Part shown: positions 14,829 through 21,457 of the stretch, one piece after another
Numbering within the stretch: the stretch's first letter is position 1
Layout of the letters: each line of letters opens with the position of its first letter
Source of the DNA: Bacteriovoracales bacterium
GTDB taxonomy: Bacteria; Bdellovibrionota; Bacteriovoracia; Bacteriovoracales; Bacteriovoracaceae
DNA length: 60,532 nucleotides
NCBI GenBank assembly: GCA_030149295.1
Contig: JASBRV010000003.1
Location: 1-60,532, forward strand
Direction: 5' to 3'
Notes under the pieces: generated by a model
Told to the model about the DNA's origin: nothing
The model's input: only the letters and a program-made list of their open reading frames with translations
The model's database searches: none
Position numbers and translations under genes: made by a program

Positions 14829-16649
14829 TTAATTTTTTTGCTCAAGATATTGAATTCCATCAATGTCCTCTACACCAAGACTAATCGTTTCATTAGCTCC
14901 TGGAGAATCTGAATCATCCTCCGCAAATTGCTTCAGTGCATCCAGATTACCCTTATCACCTGTTCCAGAGCCACTCGCTAAATTTCGCCCCTCTTCAGTA
15001 AAGAAGTTACTTCCCAATTCCATTGCAAGAGCCGTGGTATTTTGGCCTTTTGAGCCATCACTACTATTTACCTCTAAGAAACTAGAAACCACATTTGAAT
15101 AATGAACCACCTCAGCAAGATCTTCTGCACTTCTTTCAACTGACTTTTGAATATTGGCGATTGGGTTGGGAGGATTTGCTGTTTTCTTTTGAGCCTCACT
15201 GACCATTTGAGTATCGGAAAGCCGCTTATTAAGACTAGCCTGAAGAGCTTTCCTTTCATTGTTGTATTCTTTTTCAATAATTTGTTTGAGCGCCTCTTCA
15301 AGTGTCGTTGCTCCCCCTGCCTTGTTAGCATCAACCTTCGCTTGAGTTTGTTCGACAAGCTTGGCATAACTCTCATCAGTCATGCCCTTACTTTTAAAAT
15401 ATTTTTTGATCTCTTCCTGATCAGCTTTTGGGTTTTGAACAAGGTCCTTTTCAATCTTCTTTTTTAGAGCAAGACCTCTGATAAAAAACTCATCTTCAAC
15501 CTTTTTATTATCTTCTTCGCTCGTAAGATAATCATTACAACTCTCATCATTGGGATTATTAGCACATTCTTCTAATTTTTTGGCTTCCTTTTTTACCTCA
15601 TCAAGATATCCCGATTCTCTTACTAGTTCATTAGAGCCAATATTTGTCAGTTTATCTGTATTCACCTGATTGACCTGTAAATTTTTTACCTCAAGACTTT
15701 GACCCTGAACTTTACCAAACTCCTTTTTCACATCTTTCACTTTGGCCAAAGCCAACTTAACTCCTGTCATGTAACGATTAAGCTCGCATGCCGAAATGAT
15801 ATTCAAATTTTTGTTTTCATCCGCTTTCTTCTCATATTCATCTTGAATCTTTGTGTCTCTATCAAAGACAACTGAATAAAGTTCACCCTGGTAATCTTTT
15901 TGCTCTAGATAGGCAGTAGGATCACCACGACACTCTTTTGGAATATTTAAAAGACATGCATTAAAAGCCCTAAAGTTTGAAGTGCTGACAACACCATTTT
16001 GCTCCACAACTCCAGCCGTTAGGTTTTTTAAATTTTGTTCTCTTCTGTAAAGAGAAAGACCGATATCATTTGGGTCAACTTTTCCGTTTTTATCTGCATA
16101 AATACAATAGTCACTGACTTGGAGGATCAAAGATTTCCCTAGTTGTGATTCGTATAAGCTATAAAATGTTCCATGATCAACAGCATTGACTGCACCATTT
16201 GGAGCTTGGTCTTTTTGATAAAGTGACTTTTGAATACGCTCCCCTAGGTAATCACCTAACTTTTTCAAAGCTTTTGAATTCTTCTTTTGAAAACTATTGA
16301 GATTATAAGCGTAACCACTAGGGTCTTTTCCTGTACTGGATGCCTCTGCATTTTCGAGGTGCTCTTGAATATCATCCTGGATGTCTGCAACGCCATCCCA
16401 CACACATGTATCTTTATCAGTCCTTTGATCATCTGGAACACTATTAGCCTCTTCTCTTTTAATTTGGGCTTCACATTTATCAATCGCTTCTTGAACCTTT
16501 GGGAATTTTTCAATGAGATTTTCAAGCTGAGAACCTTCATTTTTCACCACCACGCCAGCACGGGTGTCATCTATAGGGCTCACCACCTCAGCGCGAATGC
16601 TGCAGGCAAACATAAAAGCAAAGAGGAGAAAGAAAAGAGGTTTTCGCAT
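14829..16649 (-). CDS. Large exported coiled-coil protein, unknown family
   Basis: A 606-residue protein with an N-terminal signal peptide (MRKPLFFLLFAFMFACSIRA). The mature part is charged and mostly helical. A central block has Cys pairs (KLEECANNPNDESCNDYL near residue 355). Long helical stretches between residues 290 and 520 look coiled-coil forming. The C-terminus is acidic and Gly/Ser-rich. The first third has several more Cys residues, so disulfides are likely. I do not recognise the family; large helical exported proteins of this kind are common in Bacteriovoracaceae. It stands alone between the protease gene and the replication module. Confidence 0.75.
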   Translation of the reverse strand: MRKPLFFLLFAFMFACSIRAEVVSPIDDTRAGVVVKNEGSQLENLIEKFPKVQEAIDKCEAQIKREEANSVPDDQRTDKDTCVWDGVADIQDDIQEHLENAEASSTGKDPSGYAYNLNSFQKKNSKALKKLGDYLGERIQKSLYQKDQAPNGAVNAVDHGTFYSLYESQLGKSLILQVSDYCIYADKNGKVDPNDIGLSLYRREQNLKNLTAGVVEQNGVVSTSNFRAFNACLLNIPKECRGDPTAYLEQKDYQGELYSVVFDRDTKIQDEYEKKADENKNLNIISACELNRYMTGVKLALAKVKDVKKEFGKVQGQSLEVKNLQVNQVNTDKLTNIGSNELVRESGYLDEVKKEAKKLEECANNPNDESCNDYLTSEEDNKKVEDEFFIRGLALKKKIEKDLVQNPKADQEEIKKYFKSKGMTDESYAKLVEQTQAKVDANKAGGATTLEEALKQIIEKEYNNERKALQASLNKRLSDTQMVSEAQKKTANPPNPIANIQKSVERSAEDLAEVVHYSNVVSSFLEVNSSDGSKGQNTTALAMELGSNFFTEEGRNLASGSGTGDKGNLDALKQFAEDDSDSPGANETISLGVEDIDGIQYLEQKN

Positions 16650-16924: not shown

Positions 16925-18562
16925 TTATTGTGTTAAGGACTCTCTTGGATTTGCTTTGATTTCTTTATAATTCAAGATATCTCCACTTAAAAAATCCACT
17001 CGGGCCAGGTCCCTCATACGATGCTCAAGACTAAGCTTGTACATCATATCCTCGGGGGAGACGCCCTCTTTTTCTAAAGAAGCTCGTGCCCTTTCATCTA
17101 AATTCTTTTTAAAAGACTTATTCTTGGCAATCATGTCTGCGTACATTTTATCAAAAGACTTTTCGAGCCTCTCCATTTCAACTTTTTTAGCTTCTTCTTT
17201 TTTAGAAAGCTCATTTTGAATTTTCTCTGTCACTTCTTTTTTACGAAAATCCTCTGCACGCTTACTCACAAAATGGCGATACTTTTCTGGAAGCTCCAAT
17301 CCACCATTGATCATGGAACTGAGAATAACCTTCGCCAACGCTTTAAAAGACTTCGTTATATGGTAATTACAACGAAGAACTTGAAATAAAGTAATATCCA
17401 AGCAAAAGTCAGCTGGGTTTAGTTTTTCCTTTCCATAAACAAAGTGATCTTTGCCTGATTCTTTTTCATAACGAAAATTAAATTCTCTTCTCATATTGAG
17501 AATATCAATTTCTCGAAGGTCTAACTCTCTTAAAGGCTTCTCTCCGTAATAATCGAGAAGATCTTGATAAAAGGAATCCCTTTCTTCTTTTGCTTCGATG
17601 AGGCTTCTGCCTTGAAAGGTGACAAAAATATCCCAATCGCTTATGCCTCGTTTTTTCTTTATGGTGAATTCAAAGTTTTTTAGATTCTCCTGAATCCTTC
17701 CCAGATACTCCCCTATTTGACGACGCTTTTTCTTTGAGCCGGTAAGGCCTATCACCTGAGCAAGCTCTTCTAAGCTAAAGAGGAATTGATCACCAAATTT
17801 CTTTCTTTTTGAATAAAGAAAAATTAAAACCCTTCTTTGCGGTCCAGATTTCAAAGAGAGGTAAGCATCTGAAGAAATAACAGAAACATATTCATCGTAG
17901 AGGTTCTTTACAATATAACTATCAAACTCAACAAAGAAGACATCCTGATAATTAGCAAAATCCACGTCTGTCGCCCCAACGCGCACCCTCCCTGATTTGA
18001 GAATAATCTTGGTGTCTTCATTCACAAGACCTATTTGGCCAGTATGCGCATTATAAGCAAAATTTTTAGTTTGCATGCTTTGAGACTTAATTTTTCGAAT
18101 CGCACGGGCCACTTTATTTCTTGAGTTTTCAGAAAGACCTAAGCGGCGGCAAACTTCTGCCAAGGTGTAATAAACACGAAAGCCGTTCATTTTGTCTTTG
18201 CTATTACGATTGCGGTCTCGTTGCTCCCACGCCATGGTTAAGAGCACGAGAAGCACATCATTTTCAAAGGCCTGTAATGGCCCCTCATTCGACTGTGTTG
18301 TCACCTCAAGCATATAAACCGAGCCACTATCATCAACAGAGCGCACGATGGCCTTGTGCTCTTCAGTCTTGTCGTAATCGTCAGTGAGGTAATATTTGAA
18401 AGGAAGGGCAAGGCCCAGATTGATTTCTACCTTAAAGCGATCGTCCGCTGCTTCACCAGTATCAAGTTCAGTAGGTGTGAACTCTAAGTCGTGATCGACT
18501 TTAATGACTGATTCCACTAAAGAAGGATCGAGGTCGCTATCTTCAATGATTGTTCCCTGCAT
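16925..18562 (-). CDS. repA: Plasmid-type replication initiator (RepA-like)
   Basis: A 545-residue protein resembling replication initiator protein A. The region around residues 96-300 matches that type: FENDVLLVLLTMAW, a helix-turn-helix-like YTLAEVCRRLGLSENSRNKV, a second wing with SLKSGPQRRVLIFLYSKR and a further FSLEELAQVIGLTGSKKKRR. The C-terminal third (residues 430-545) is a charged helix, longer than in most RepA proteins. The assignment is strongly supported by context: the array of repeated sites at 18638-19181 lies immediately upstream, and parA/parB-like genes follow. The protein should bind these iterons and open the origin. The ATG has a GGGAAG site. RepA binding to iterons near its own promoter commonly gives self-repression. 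Confidence 0.8.
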   Translation of the reverse strand: MQGTIIEDSDLDPSLVESVIKVDHDLEFTPTELDTGEAADDRFKVEINLGLALPFKYYLTDDYDKTEEHKAIVRSVDDSGSVYMLEVTTQSNEGPLQAFENDVLLVLLTMAWEQRDRNRNSKDKMNGFRVYYTLAEVCRRLGLSENSRNKVARAIRKIKSQSMQTKNFAYNAHTGQIGLVNEDTKIILKSGRVRVGATDVDFANYQDVFFVEFDSYIVKNLYDEYVSVISSDAYLSLKSGPQRRVLIFLYSKRKKFGDQFLFSLEELAQVIGLTGSKKKRRQIGEYLGRIQENLKNFEFTIKKKRGISDWDIFVTFQGRSLIEAKEERDSFYQDLLDYYGEKPLRELDLREIDILNMRREFNFRYEKESGKDHFVYGKEKLNPADFCLDITLFQVLRCNYHITKSFKALAKVILSSMINGGLELPEKYRHFVSKRAEDFRKKEVTEKIQNELSKKEEAKKVEMERLEKSFDKMYADMIAKNKSFKKNLDERARASLEKEGVSPEDMMYKLSLEHRMRDLARVDFLSGDILNYKEIKANPRESLTQ

Positions 18563-18637: not shown

Positions 18638-19181
18638 GTCCCTAAAAGTACCGCTCATTTCGCACTATCCCTAATAGTCTCGCTAAAAACTTTAATCCCT
18701 AAAAAAACAGCCGCTGTTTTTTCTCCCAAGAAGTACCGGCCAAATTTTTGTCCCTATCAGTACATAGCAAAGGTCAAAAATGGTCCCATTAAAGTTCAAG
18801 TGTCAAAATTGTCCCCAATAGTACAGCCCGCTTAAGAATCTCAGCAGCTACTTTCAAAATTGTCCCTAATAGTACAGTTGTAAATTAGTGAGTGACCAAC
18901 TGGGTGTATCCGTAGGGACATTGACCTGTACTAATAGGGAGAAAGGCCTTTCTCGGCATGTATCATTAGGGACTTATTTAAATAGGGCTGTACTCAAAGG
19001 GACAAAGGACTGTACTCGTACGGACTTTAGCCTGTACCAATAGGGATCTTGCTATGTACTTGTAGGGACTTAAGTCTTATTAACTTACTGAAATCACGAA
19101 CAAAGTCCCTAGTAGTACCGCCTATATATAAGTAAGTAAGTTTAATTATATATACTATTAATAGGCTGTACTCATAGGGAC
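18638..19181. repeat. Iteron array, likely replication origin (oriV)
   Basis: Seventeen copies of a 15-bp site, consensus TGTACTNNTAGGGAC or its complement GTCCCTANNAGTACA. In the left arm the complement form starts at 18638, 18667, 18695, 18723, 18750, 18783, 18811 and 18862, mostly 27-29 bp apart. In the right arm the direct form starts at 18905, 18927, 18959, 18989, 19011, 19033 and 19055; the last four are exactly 22 bp apart. Two more lie at 19105 (complement) and 19167 (direct). Left-arm copies are more degenerate. This is the expected substrate for the adjacent RepA-like protein. Two further copies lie in the neighbouring CDS. Confidence 0.85.
19119..19165. other. AT-rich stretch, possible DNA-unwinding element
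   Basis: Between the last two iterons the sequence is nearly pure A/T with TATATATAAGTAAGTAAG and TTAATTATATATACTATTAATA runs. Such a segment beside iterons is the usual place where an origin melts. No perfect DnaA box (TTATCCACA) was seen nearby. Confidence 0.5.
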
Positions 19182-19208
19182 CACTTTAAATTTTGTGTGT
19201 GTGTATCC

Positions 19209-19655
19209 CTAAAATTTTAATGTCTCTTCTATAAATGTCCTTAGCTCACTTTCAGTTTGTATGCCCTTAAAGTCGATAGTATCGATCTGATCTTCGATTC
19301 TGTCGCAAAAGGATTGTAAGAGGATTCTTAAAATCGTGTTATCGGTAATTCTTTTGTTAGACCTGTACTCGTAGGGCAATTCTCTCTTAGCCCGAGTAAT
19401 TTCTGAGCAAAAAACTTTAAGGAGATCAACATCTTCTGCTCTTAAACGCGCGCCTTTTTGAATATAGCGATCAAAAGTTCGCTCAGGATAACGTTTTTGA
19501 CCCTTTTGTTCTTTTTGATCTCTTTGACCATGCTCATGAAGATTTCGGGGTGTACTCGTAGGGACCTTTTCTTCAATAGGTTCCTCTTTTTTTGTTGGCC
19601 CCTTTGCCTTCACTCTTCTTGCTGAAGTAAAAAATTCTTCCATTGATCCTGACAT
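19209..19655 (-). CDS. Small partition partner of ParA (parB-like)
   Basis: A 148-residue basic protein encoded directly after parA with a TAATG overlap and a GGAGG ribosome site inside the parA end. The first 60 residues are charged and probably disordered. The rest is helical and includes RITDNTILRILLQSFCDRIED, similar in feel to the DNA-binding helices of small plasmid partition proteins. No ParB box or ribbon-helix-helix can be confirmed. By position it is expected to bind the centromere and to stimulate the ParA ATPase. Oddly, two near-perfect iterons lie inside the gene (19364-19378 and 19551-19565). Confidence 0.7.
   Translation of the reverse strand: MSGSMEEFFTSARRVKAKGPTKKEEPIEEKVPTSTPRNLHEHGQRDQKEQKGQKRYPERTFDRYIQKGARLRAEDVDLLKVFCSEITRAKRELPYEYRSNKRITDNTILRILLQSFCDRIEDQIDTIDFKGIQTESELRTFIEETLKF
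19364..19378 (-). repeat. Iteron inside the parB-like gene
   Basis: TGTACTCGTAGGGCA matches the origin iteron consensus at 14 of 15 positions when N is allowed. It lies within coding sequence, 183 bases beyond the last intergenic iteron. Confidence 0.7.
19551..19565 (-). repeat. Perfect iteron inside the parB-like gene
   Basis: TGTACTCGTAGGGAC is a full match to the iteron consensus and lies near the 5' part of the parB-like coding sequence, 187 bases from the copy at 19364. Confidence 0.75.
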
Positions 19656-20524
19656 TAGGCCTCCTTCCCTGGTAAGCGCTTACTCGTTAATTGAGCCTCT
19701 TGAGTTTCAATTGCTTTTATTCGCTCAAGCATTTCATCGACGAGTCCTAAATATTCTTTGTGTCCCCTCTCTGATGCTTTTGTGACATCAAAAATAGTTT
19801 TACGCTCTCGTGGGAGAAAGGCAAATTTAGATGAGATGGGAATGACTGTTTCAAAGAAATGAATGCCTGTCTTCTCACTTAGATCTGAAAGCTCAACGAT
19901 AGCTTTTTTTGCCATCTTTGGTCTTTTATCCATAGAGGAGATAAAAAAGCCAAGAGGTTCCAGATAAGGATTTTGAAGTTTCTTAACTTTTAGGCCTGCG
20001 GTTATTGTGTCTCCAATTGATTCCATTGAGAGGTCACTTGTTTGCACAGGAATGAGAAAGTAATCCGCAGCGAGCAGGGAGCTGACGGTGGTTATTCCCA
20101 GAGAAGGTGCATTGTCGATAAGAATAAAGTGGCACTCCCCTAGTCTTTCAGAGTTTTCGATGAGTTCCTTTAAGAGATTAAAACCCTCAAGTCCCAACTG
20201 ATTAAGAAGGGCTTCTATATTGTAATTGGCGCCTCTGGCATCTTTTTTTTCAGAGGGAATGATAAATAGATTTTCTCTTTCGGTTTCATAGAAAACCTCA
20301 TCGAGACTTCCCCCATTGGCCATCACATCACATATTCCCCTCACCTTTTGCTCGCTTTCCCAAATGGGACCTATAGTTGAGCGCGTAACGTTACTTTGAG
20401 TGGTGTCAAAGTCAATGATGCAGGTTTTGAAACCTAAATCGGCAAGGCGACTTGCGATATGGATTGTTGAAGTGGTTTTTCCTACTCCACCTTTTTGACC
20501 TGTAATGGAAATGATTCTTGGCAT
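19655..20524 (-). CDS. parA: ParA-family partition ATPase
   Basis: A 289-residue ParA/MinD-type ATPase. The deviant Walker A motif KGGVGKTT is at residues 10-17, the Walker A' region CIIDFDTTQSNVT is near 36, and Walker B is in HFILIDNAPSLG near 130. There is no N-terminal helix-turn-helix extension, so it is of the short (type Ib-like) class, which normally pairs with a small centromere-binding protein, here the next gene. It should bind DNA non-specifically and move replicon copies apart. The AAGAGAGG ribosome site precedes the ATG. The palindrome-rich region directly upstream is the probable centromere and operator. Confidence 0.92.
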   Translation of the reverse strand: MPRIISITGQKGGVGKTTSTIHIASRLADLGFKTCIIDFDTTQSNVTRSTIGPIWESEQKVRGICDVMANGGSLDEVFYETERENLFIIPSEKKDARGANYNIEALLNQLGLEGFNLLKELIENSERLGECHFILIDNAPSLGITTVSSLLAADYFLIPVQTSDLSMESIGDTITAGLKVKKLQNPYLEPLGFFISSMDKRPKMAKKAIVELSDLSEKTGIHFFETVIPISSKFAFLPRERKTIFDVTKASERGHKEYLGLVDEMLERIKAIETQEAQLTSKRLPGKEA

Positions 20525-20539
20525 TTGGACCTCTCTTCC

Positions 20540-20810
20540 TTAAGAGTTTGAAACTAAGGAGTTTAAAACTTTCGACTTTCAAACTTTATTGTTGAAACTT
20601 TAAAACTCCTTACATTGTAATTCATAACTAGAAAGTTCGAAACTTTTGAACTTATCACTTTTAAGTTTATGAGTAGTCACTTTGAAAGTGTGTCGTTTTA
20701 AACTTTAAAGCTTGGTAGTTATAAGTTTTATAGTTATGAGTTTGAGAGTAGGAGCTTTTAAAGTTTGCAGTTTTAGAGTTTAAACTTTTAAAGTTTAAAA
20801 CTCTTTGAAT
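20540..20810. repeat. Dense AAACTTT/AAAGTTT palindromes, candidate parS and par operator
   Basis: About 270 bases without a gene, filled with imperfect palindromes built from AGTTT and AAACT half-sites. Examples are GAGTTTGAAACT, GGAGTTTAAAACTTTC, GTTGAAACTTTAAAACTCC, GAAAGTTCGAAACTTTTG, CACTTTGAAAGTG, TTTTAAACTTTAAAGC and GTTTAAACTTTTAAAGTTT. At least ten units are present. Upstream of a type Ib-like parA this is where centromere repeats and the par promoter are usually found. Confidence 0.6.
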
Positions 20811-21067
20811 GTCAATATAGAAGGGGCTTTTGCGAAATTAGAGGAATTTTTCATGAATTTGCGGCTAGGGGAGGGGGATTTAGCCAATGCTCTCACAGGC
20901 CCTTATTTGCATTCTAAGCCCATCTAGAGTGGACGTAGGCGTAGGGAAGGGTTGAATGAATAGGAGCAAAGTTTAATAGTTTAAAGTTTTAAAGTTTTAA
21001 ACTTTTCCTTAAAAGGGCGATTCATGGCCATTTTTTACTTGCAAAAGCCAAAGAGAATACGTCAAAC
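20811..21067. other. Gene-free spacer between par region and histone gene
   Basis: No convincing gene. It contains a second small cluster of the same half-sites at about 20971-21005 (AAAGTTTAATAGTTTAAAG and following), separated from the main cluster by about 160 bases of less AT-rich sequence. A 24-codon frame at 20853-20927 is not credible. Confidence 0.4.
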
Positions 21068-21142
21068 TTGTGTTTATTGTGATTACGCGTAAGACATTTG
21101 TCACAAAAGGAAACGCAATTTTAACCATCGATGGAGGAATTC

Positions 21143-21397
21143 ATGGCTAAGAAAAAAGCTACAAAAAAGAAAGCAACTAAGAAAACTGCAGCAAGAAAAT
21201 CATCAAGAAGAGAAGTTCTTGTTGTTGGTTCTAAAACTAAAGCTGCTCTTAAGGGTTCTGGAAAGAACACTTTCAACGTATCTTCTGATACTCTTGATGC
21301 TCTTAATGAGCTTATGTACCAAGCTGTTGAGCAAGCTCAAAAAAGATGTGCGGCAAACGGTCGTAAGACTATCCGTCCACATGACATCCTTGCTTAA
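21143..21397 (+). CDS. Bacterial histone with lysine-rich N-terminal tail
   Basis: An 84-residue basic protein. Residues 1-24 are a Lys/Ala/Thr tail (MAKKKATKKKATKKTAARKS). The rest is a single histone fold: VVGSKTKAALKG (helix 1), DTLDALNELMYQAVEQAQKR (helix 2), then the loop NGRKTIRPHDIL with the conserved Arg and Asp of the RD clamp, and a very short third helix. It is of the type reported as a chromatin protein in Bdellovibrio, with the tail as an added feature. The ATG at 21143 is fixed by GGAGG at 21133-21137, which itself lies beside an earlier ATG at 21131. It has its own terminator, so it is monocistronic. Confidence 0.85.
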   Translation: MAKKKATKKKATKKTAARKSSRREVLVVGSKTKAALKGSGKNTFNVSSDTLDALNELMYQAVEQAQKRCAANGRKTIRPHDILA

Positions 21398-21425
21398 TTA
21401 GCTCTTAAAAAGTTATTTAATTGTG

Positions 21426-21457
21426 AAAGCCGGCTTTAGTGGTCGGCTTTTTTTTTG
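21426..21457 (+). terminator. Rho-independent terminator of the histone gene
   Basis: The stem AAAGCCG/CGGCTTT has an 11-base loop and is followed by a run of T residues. It lies about 30 bases after the histone stop. Confidence 0.85.

Follow-up and report, generated by a model that had tools for sequence, protein, structure and literature searches.

The window analysed here, meaning the whole stretch of DNA under study, is the entire 60,532-base contig C140 (JASBRV010000003.1) of a Bacteriovoracales bacterium, whose ends were compared for circular closure and showed no overlap. On its forward strand it carries a gene for a small histone of the face-to-face (FtF) type with a basic N-terminal tail, and an earlier reading of the letters alone (the original prediction) had given its open reading frame (ORF) the right coordinates and strand. 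The gene, its parts and the elements directly around it are the following:

21031..21069, + strand: promoter-like block TTTTTTACTTGCAAA...TCAAACTT
21133..21137, + strand: Shine-Dalgarno sequence GGAGG
21143..21397, + strand: FtF-type histone gene (protein P0001), 84 amino acids plus stop, recognised from the ORF, PDB match, orthologs, AlphaFold2 and Foldseek
21143..21211, + strand: basic N-terminal tail of 23 residues, the first 11 being MAKKKATKKKA, delimited by the fold model, composition and comparison within the genus
21212..21394, + strand: histone fold of 61 amino acids, with R68/N72/R74, the RD clamp R74/D81, and S30, K31, K33 and K37 of helix 1
21425..21456, + strand: hairpin followed by a T run, resembling an intrinsic terminator, after the histone gene

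The histone ORF represents more than a chance reading frame, because an ortholog is present in all seven genomes of the genus and the codon variation among them is biased towards third positions: within the fold, third positions vary at 46 of 61 codons, first positions at 8 and second positions at 4. The GGAGG sequence lies 5 nt 5′ of the start at 21143, and no Shine-Dalgarno match accompanies an in-frame ATG situated upstream, at 21131. The possibility that the tail is a spurious N-terminal extension was rejected, since the GGAGG site precedes the tail start in 7/7 genus genomes, MAKKKATKKKA is identical in all of them, and 9 of the 10 codons following the ATG vary, all synonymously.

In regard to the fold, the closest PDB sequences were HLp (9qt0, E 3.6e-9), HBb (8cmp and 8fvx, about 1e-5) and HTkC (9f2c, 0.02). 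Comparisons with relatives were based on the 80 best-scoring of 418, of which one (L130) has no start codon before the fold, leaving 79 translated; P0001 and 69 of these 79 form a 70-sequence alignment, which also served for the AlphaFold2 monomer model. The model contains helices at residues 29-37, 50-71 and 79-83, so that the third helix is only 5 residues long. Its predicted local distance difference test score (pLDDT), read by blocks of ten, reaches 76-94 in all blocks after residue 20 and 49 in the two blocks before, the basic tail being probably disordered. When the model was submitted to Foldseek, the first nine rows were chains of HBb, HLp and HTkC, with HBb on top (E 1.1e-3, 1.9 Å) and HLp next (E 1.3e-3, 1.3 Å, TM 0.90-0.91 on the target). 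The RD clamp is formed by R74 and D81, which align with R55 and D62 of HLp and are both invariant in the 70 sequences. Nucleosomal histones of archaea and eukaryotes have a longer third helix with a nucleosomal dimer-dimer interface, and membership of that class was rejected on the 5-residue third helix of the predicted model. The single histone fold, the RD clamp and the shortened third helix, all named in the original prediction, are thus present, and it is confirmed that 21143-21397 encodes a genuine histone.

The original prediction had likened this histone to the one known from Bdellovibrio, which does not hold, as among solved structures its sequence comes closest to HLp, an FtF histone that forms tetramers, and the residues of the FtF dimer-dimer interface are present. 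In HLp, R49, N53 and R55 are described as taking part in dimer-dimer contacts, with R55/D62 as the RD clamp (PMC12701072), and in the PDB sequence alignment they correspond to R68, N72 and R74, so that all three are found here. Among the 79 translated relatives, the asparagine is kept in 79/79 and the site of R49 is arginine in 58 and lysine in 21, after rows L180 and L183, where the residue pattern had matched the tails, were corrected by eye. Furthermore, the helix-1 DNA contacts reported for HLp (S14, K15, K17 and K21; PMC12701072) map to S30, K31, K33 and K37, the first three invariant and K37 at least 90% conserved in the 70 sequences, and T76 is the sole retained contact (T57) among the HLp loop contacts T27, G29, T56 and T57. 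A torus-shaped tetramer is the published defining feature of FtF (alpha-3) histones, and the account in PMC11390915 names the class Bacteriovoracia as a main holder, with dimer histones in the class Bdellovibrionia. The histone described here therefore shows the truncated third helix, RD clamp, dimer-dimer residues, helix-1 contacts and taxonomic range of an FtF histone. Assignment to the ZZ histones was rejected, since what precedes the fold is a basic tail devoid of Cys and no ZZ zinc finger.

The tail, MAKKKATKKKATKKTAARKSSRR, holds 9 K and 3 R among its 23 residues and no D or E, which gives it a net charge of +12, followed by a fold with a net charge of +3. The 24-residue Lys/Ala tail of the original prediction was right in length to within one residue, but Thr, Ser and Arg contribute to it as well. 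When 86 mechanically listed window ORFs of at least 80 amino acids (counting nested ones) were ranked by how basic their first 23 residues are, the runner-up contained 30% K+R. Tails are 19-29 residues long in the seven genus genomes, hence at least 12 residues in 7/7. For a wider census, two further relatives with implausible automatic starts (L185 and L192) were dropped, and of the remaining 77, 36 have a tail of at least 12 residues and 41 one of at most 9. On a tree of 75 different rows and 62 columns, in which many forks are open and which serves for nearest neighbours and tail changes only, the presence of a tail needs at least 13 changes, four of them forced by well-supported branches. 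Positively charged tails are, moreover, reported as common on bacterial FtF histones in PMC11390915, so the idea that a tailed bacterial histone is unusual is wrong or at least weakened; the circumstance that was to lower its novelty, a tail common to all relatives, largely applies, though not to the short-tailed 41.

Conservation within the tail is uneven. The exact 11-residue opening MAKKKATKKKA begins 13 of the 36 longer tails, against 0.002 expected when each tail is shuffled, and these 13 comprise 10 from Bdellovibrionota (6 of them from the genus of the window) and 3 from Acidobacteriota. Identity across phyla was measured between 24 rows titled Bdellovibrionota and 9 titled Acidobacteriota or Krumholzibacteriota, leaving out L186 as well as L122 and L138, neither of which is titled Bdellovibrionota; dropping L177, titled only 'bacterium', gives the same result. 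It amounted to 0.77 at tail positions 2-5 and 0.52 at positions 6-11, against 0.32 in shuffled tails (0/1000 each), and to 0.33 at positions 12-19, against 0.31 (288/1000), in rows that are related rather than independent, having been chosen as the top 80 by similarity. With a single row for the genus of the window, the three values were 0.76, 0.47 and 0.33. Because identity exceeds that of shuffled tails at positions 2-11 and comes near it at 12-19, the tail may be divided, as far as sequence comparison can tell, into a conserved cap, the first 11 residues, and a spacer conserved only in composition, a detail that is possibly new. A caveat on this cap comes from the short-tailed relatives, 6/41 of which also start with MAKKK and 22/41 with MAK. 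Another is that a fumarate hydratase-like protein, recognised by eye and encoded in the same genome as the histone (L227, G000 contig C129, about 44.5 kb), has ATKKKATKKKA near its N-terminus, a Lys/Ala/Thr repeat resembling the histone tail.

The tailed histone is accompanied by other histones or histone-like proteins in the genome. A second one, on contig C45 (L104, L003), is 61 amino acids long, tailless and FtF-like, with the same R/N/R residues, and a search of the whole genome with PF00808 at E 0.001 returned only this second gene. Copies of the paralog are present in 6/7 genus genomes, not in G003, which is 84% complete, and its taillessness was read in G000, G001 and G006. A third, histone-fold-like protein on contig C44 (L105) has about 150 residues and a Cys-rich, ZZ-like start, a name that comes from its Cys pattern and size, as Pfam reported no ZZ domain in it. 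The idea of a ZZ finger as reader of the histone tail seems unlikely: a protein of ZZ size is the only match (E 0.01) in 13/14 genomes of genus g4 and is therefore independent of the tailed FtF histone, and such a role is also deemed unlikely in PMC11390915. As for the cap, its occurrence in several phyla, on a spacer of free length, might mean that it is a specific site for docking or for modification, which this genus would tune by combining the tailed form with the tailless FtF-like histone, a proposal that we regard as speculative and rather improbable; if true, bacteria would have a counterpart to histone variants with and without tails. More plainly, the cap could originate from translation-start selection in a very highly made protein, or from a shared register of a 5-residue repeat.

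The expression signals of the gene are in line with an abundant product. The promoter-like block occurs in 7/7 genus genomes, whether rep/par genes are present or not, with one-base variants in G005 and G006, and it was not found in G073, from another genus. Codon adaptation was calculated against 21 genes of the ribosomal-protein operon, identified by eye with adk and secY left out. The histone reached 0.83 (0.82 for the fold alone) and the tailless paralog 0.79, compared with 0.60-0.76 for the reference genes themselves and a median of 0.56 and maximum of 0.68 for 86 mechanically called ORFs of at least 120 amino acids from five stretches. Synonymous resampling of the fold reached the observed value in 0/5000 cases. 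A gene with its own promoter-like block and a codon bias above that of the ribosomal-protein genes is therefore best read as encoding a general, abundant nucleoid protein.

We accordingly consider it quite probable that this tailed bacterial FtF histone is an abundant, general nucleoid-packing protein, its abundance being something that we infer. By analogy with HLp, two histone-fold dimers would join via R68, N72 and R74 into a ring-like tetramer, and DNA, about 60 bp in the case of HLp, would wrap around it and be kept in place by helix 1, through S30, K31, K33 and K37, together with the loops. Being flexible and charged +12, the tail may touch the same DNA duplex or one nearby through further electrostatic contacts that do not depend on sequence, and so raise affinity and compaction, a role suggested by its charge.

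Several observations weigh against this picture. The structure prediction and the PDB sequences fit a histone, but the family search proposed in the original prediction went the other way, with PF00808 at 14.5 bits, below its cut-off of 21.4, and ranked under the likewise sub-threshold OFCC1 (21.7, cut-off 27); no curated Pfam family passes, NCBIfam gave nothing meaningful for the histone protein, and no Foldseek row reached E <=0.001. As regards the class, the presence of lysine at the R49 site in 21/79 relatives departs from HLp, and in a hand mapping the loop contacts T27, G29 and T56 become V46, S48 and K75, loop 1 is three residues longer, and F63 is replaced by I82. As regards expression, a sigma-70 consensus scan does not list the promoter-like block, one terminator-like hairpin was found where shuffles lead to expect 0.5, and codon bias is only a proxy for expression, taken here from a short gene.

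The most serious competing view is that of an HBb-type dimer histone, which would bend DNA without forming tetramers and have its DNA binding stabilised by the tail. In favour of this view, HBb comes second among distinct PDB sequence matches (E 1.2e-5) and heads the Foldseek list by E-value, and HBb and HLp alike have the short third helix. On the other hand, HLp surpasses HBb both by sequence and by superposition (1.3 against 1.8-1.9 Å), and the published ranges place FtF histones, rather than dimers, in the class to which this bacterium's nearest relatives belong. R68 and N72 occupy FtF sites (R48/N52 in profile numbering) which bacterial dimer histones reportedly lack (PMC11390915); membership of the HBb type was rejected on this ground, and we hold a function of that kind to be unlikely.

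The remaining alternatives concern the genes upstream of the promoter-like block, where the original prediction had correctly recognised a plasmid-type rep/par module adjoining the histone, ParA being supported by Pfam, the iterons by their repetition, and Rep by position and iterons only:

14829..16649, - strand: orf606, a relative of which is the divergent histone neighbour in G005 and G073, both without rep/par
16925..18562, - strand: putative replication initiator (Rep), 545 amino acids, named from position and iterons only
18638..19565, no strand: 15 iteron matches TGTACTNNTAGGGAC with at most 2 mismatches, in both orientations
19209..19655, - strand: candidate second par gene, 148 amino acids, no family match
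19655..20524, - strand: ParA-type ATPase (Pfam), a neighbour outside the histone unit
20540..21010, no strand: AGTTT/AAACT-rich array, candidate partition site

Thirteen of the iterons lie between the 545- and 148-amino-acid genes and two inside the latter, a total of 15 against 0.74 expected in the window for a search pattern derived from these very repeats. The putative Rep gave only weak hits of unrelated kinds, none meaningful, in Pfam, NCBIfam and PHROGs, had no PDB sequence match and no relative in plasmid records or viral contigs, and its AlphaFold model, built with 5 close sequences, is unusable (mean pLDDT 42). The second par candidate had no family match in Pfam, NCBIfam or PHROGs. 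Since a different contig, C114, carries dnaA and, about 8 kb from it, a ParB gene, the rep/par module of the window is additional.

The distribution of the module is patchy, with rep in 5/7 genus genomes and 15/129 family genomes (a search at the level of the order covered the same 129). Those five genus genomes are arranged as orf606 - rep - par - array - histone. G005 has the upstream block (gene families 5, 6, 7, 8, 0) directly followed by the histone with no rep/par between them, and in G073 a distant orf606 relative (22-26% identity) stands beside the histone, again without rep/par. For G001, the stretch taken contains no orf606 and no rep/par, and a rep match is absent from the whole genome. 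Because G005 and G073 show orf606 and the histone as direct neighbours and lack rep/par, the module looks secondary to the histone and a later arrival, and the simplest history is that it was inserted next to orf606, in front of a histone gene already in place; within the genus, loss from G005 is an alternative. The array follows the same pattern, as the 600 bp before the histone contain 14-24 AGTTT/AAACT words in the five genomes with rep/par (0/500 shuffles) and 3-4 in G001, G005 and G073 (123-238 of 500 shuffles), so that it travels with the rep/par module and not with the histone.

It was suggested originally that the histone has a role in packing this replicon. As a replicon-specific packing or partition factor, it would work with the adjoining module, next to which it stands in 5/7 genus genomes, the same five that hold this rep. 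In two more distant family members (L091 and L092), a ParA-like match, weak at 23-24% identity, is situated about 2 kb away from the histone. Likewise, on a plasmid of Halococcus dombrowskii (L228, NZ_CP095008.1 63128-69319), a DUF1931-annotated histone is divergent beside ParA, as in the window. This pairing failed as a parallel, since annotated ParA was near the histone in 1/11 haloarchaeal plasmid loci opened (of 50 matching), the other 10 having none in the 6-kb stretch, with the reservations that the PLSDB gene table is incomplete and that several of the 11 loci have the same neighbours. Moreover, histone, promoter-like block and orf606 junction occur without rep/par in G005, and the junction also in G073; the histone is present without rep in G001 and G005, while rep is confined to few family genomes; and codon bias is opposite in the two, with 0.49-0.55 for the rep/par genes. 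Partnership with rep/par was therefore rejected as the explanation of the function of the histone, and we regard it as very improbable. Mobile cargo, a phage or plasmid gene that arrived with the rep/par module, is the least credible origin of all: related histones do occur on plasmids (50 records match, the 20 listed being all haloarchaeal, at 40-47% identity), but phage records contained no match, IMG/VR viral contigs gave three distant relatives (L219-L221) with weak matches of 27-42% identity, orthologs are carried by long contigs whose stretches, as far as taken, show no rep/par, such as the 3.4-Mb contig of G042, a genome that has no rep match, and G005, itself lacking rep/par, has the same flanking genes as far as orf606. 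Overall, the original prediction is partly supported, and a general nucleoid-packing histone remains the preferred interpretation of the gene.

Histones are widespread among the relatives of this bacterium. Some histone match is found in 96/129 family genomes (E 0.01) and, with a profile, in 301/368 genomes of the phylum (E 1e-6), numbers in which FtF-like, dimer-like and ZZ-size proteins are mixed. Among the best relatives listed, the nearest named ones come from metagenome-assembled genomes (MAGs) whose titles give Bacteriovoracaceae, Halobacteriovoraceae and Bacteriovoracia. Six loci from records named Candidatus Omnitrophota (L127, L128, L131, L133, L139, L162) also encode FtF-like histones, with 60-71% identity to the one here and tails all of at most 7 residues, which are placed among Bdellovibrionota rows in the weak tree; gene transfer is possible, as is contamination in short contigs such as L127. 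Tailed orthologs are further found in records not titled MAG, among them those of Bacteriovorax sp. DB6_IX (L124, 32 residues) and BSW11_IV (L143, 28 residues), so that the function of a bacterial histone tail could be tested. The genome studied here combines a tailed FtF-like histone with a tailless one, each having a codon bias above the ribosomal-protein reference, and this pair, together with the conserved tail cap, is the part that deserves the attention of specialists.

Literature searches on histones of Bacteriovoracaceae, Lys-rich tails, Omnitrophota and FtF tails gave nothing on this protein, judged by titles and the beginnings of abstracts, and its position is best seen from the systems already described. 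HLp of Leptospira perolatii (9QT0-9QT2), called only the second bacterial histone to be characterised structurally and functionally, after HBb (PMC12701072), agrees with it in fold, short third helix, RD clamp, tetramer residues and helix-1 contacts, but differs in the loop 1 length and loop residues mentioned above. The studied form of HLp has 63 residues, about 7 of them before the fold, in place of the 23-residue, +12 tail found here; databases also contain a form of 77 residues, and Leptospirales FtF histones are, according to PMC11390915, always tailed. HBb (Bd0055 of Bdellovibrio bacteriovorus; 8CMP, 8FVX, 9EZZ) shares the histone fold, short third helix, RD clamp and RKT motif, but is less similar in sequence and belongs to the dimer group, reported without the FtF tetramer residues, and its solved chains (64-66 amino acids) have no long basic tail. 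Neither of the two studied forms therefore has a long tail. The haloarchaeal plasmid relatives, annotated as DUF1931 or DNA-binding protein, resemble the present case as related histones on a secondary replicon, and differ in being archaeal and, in the records opened, 55 amino acids long; their class is taken from PMC11390915, by whose account histones of Halobacteria are FtF. The histone of the window also resembles the bacterial FtF histones with tails described in the same source, of which Bacteriovoracia are a main holder and whose tails are common and mostly positive, the difference being that, in the rows compared in this analysis, conservation of the first 11 residues extends from Bdellovibrionota to Acidobacteriota/Krumholzibacteriota. 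The tailed FtF histone of the window is a further member of this published kind.
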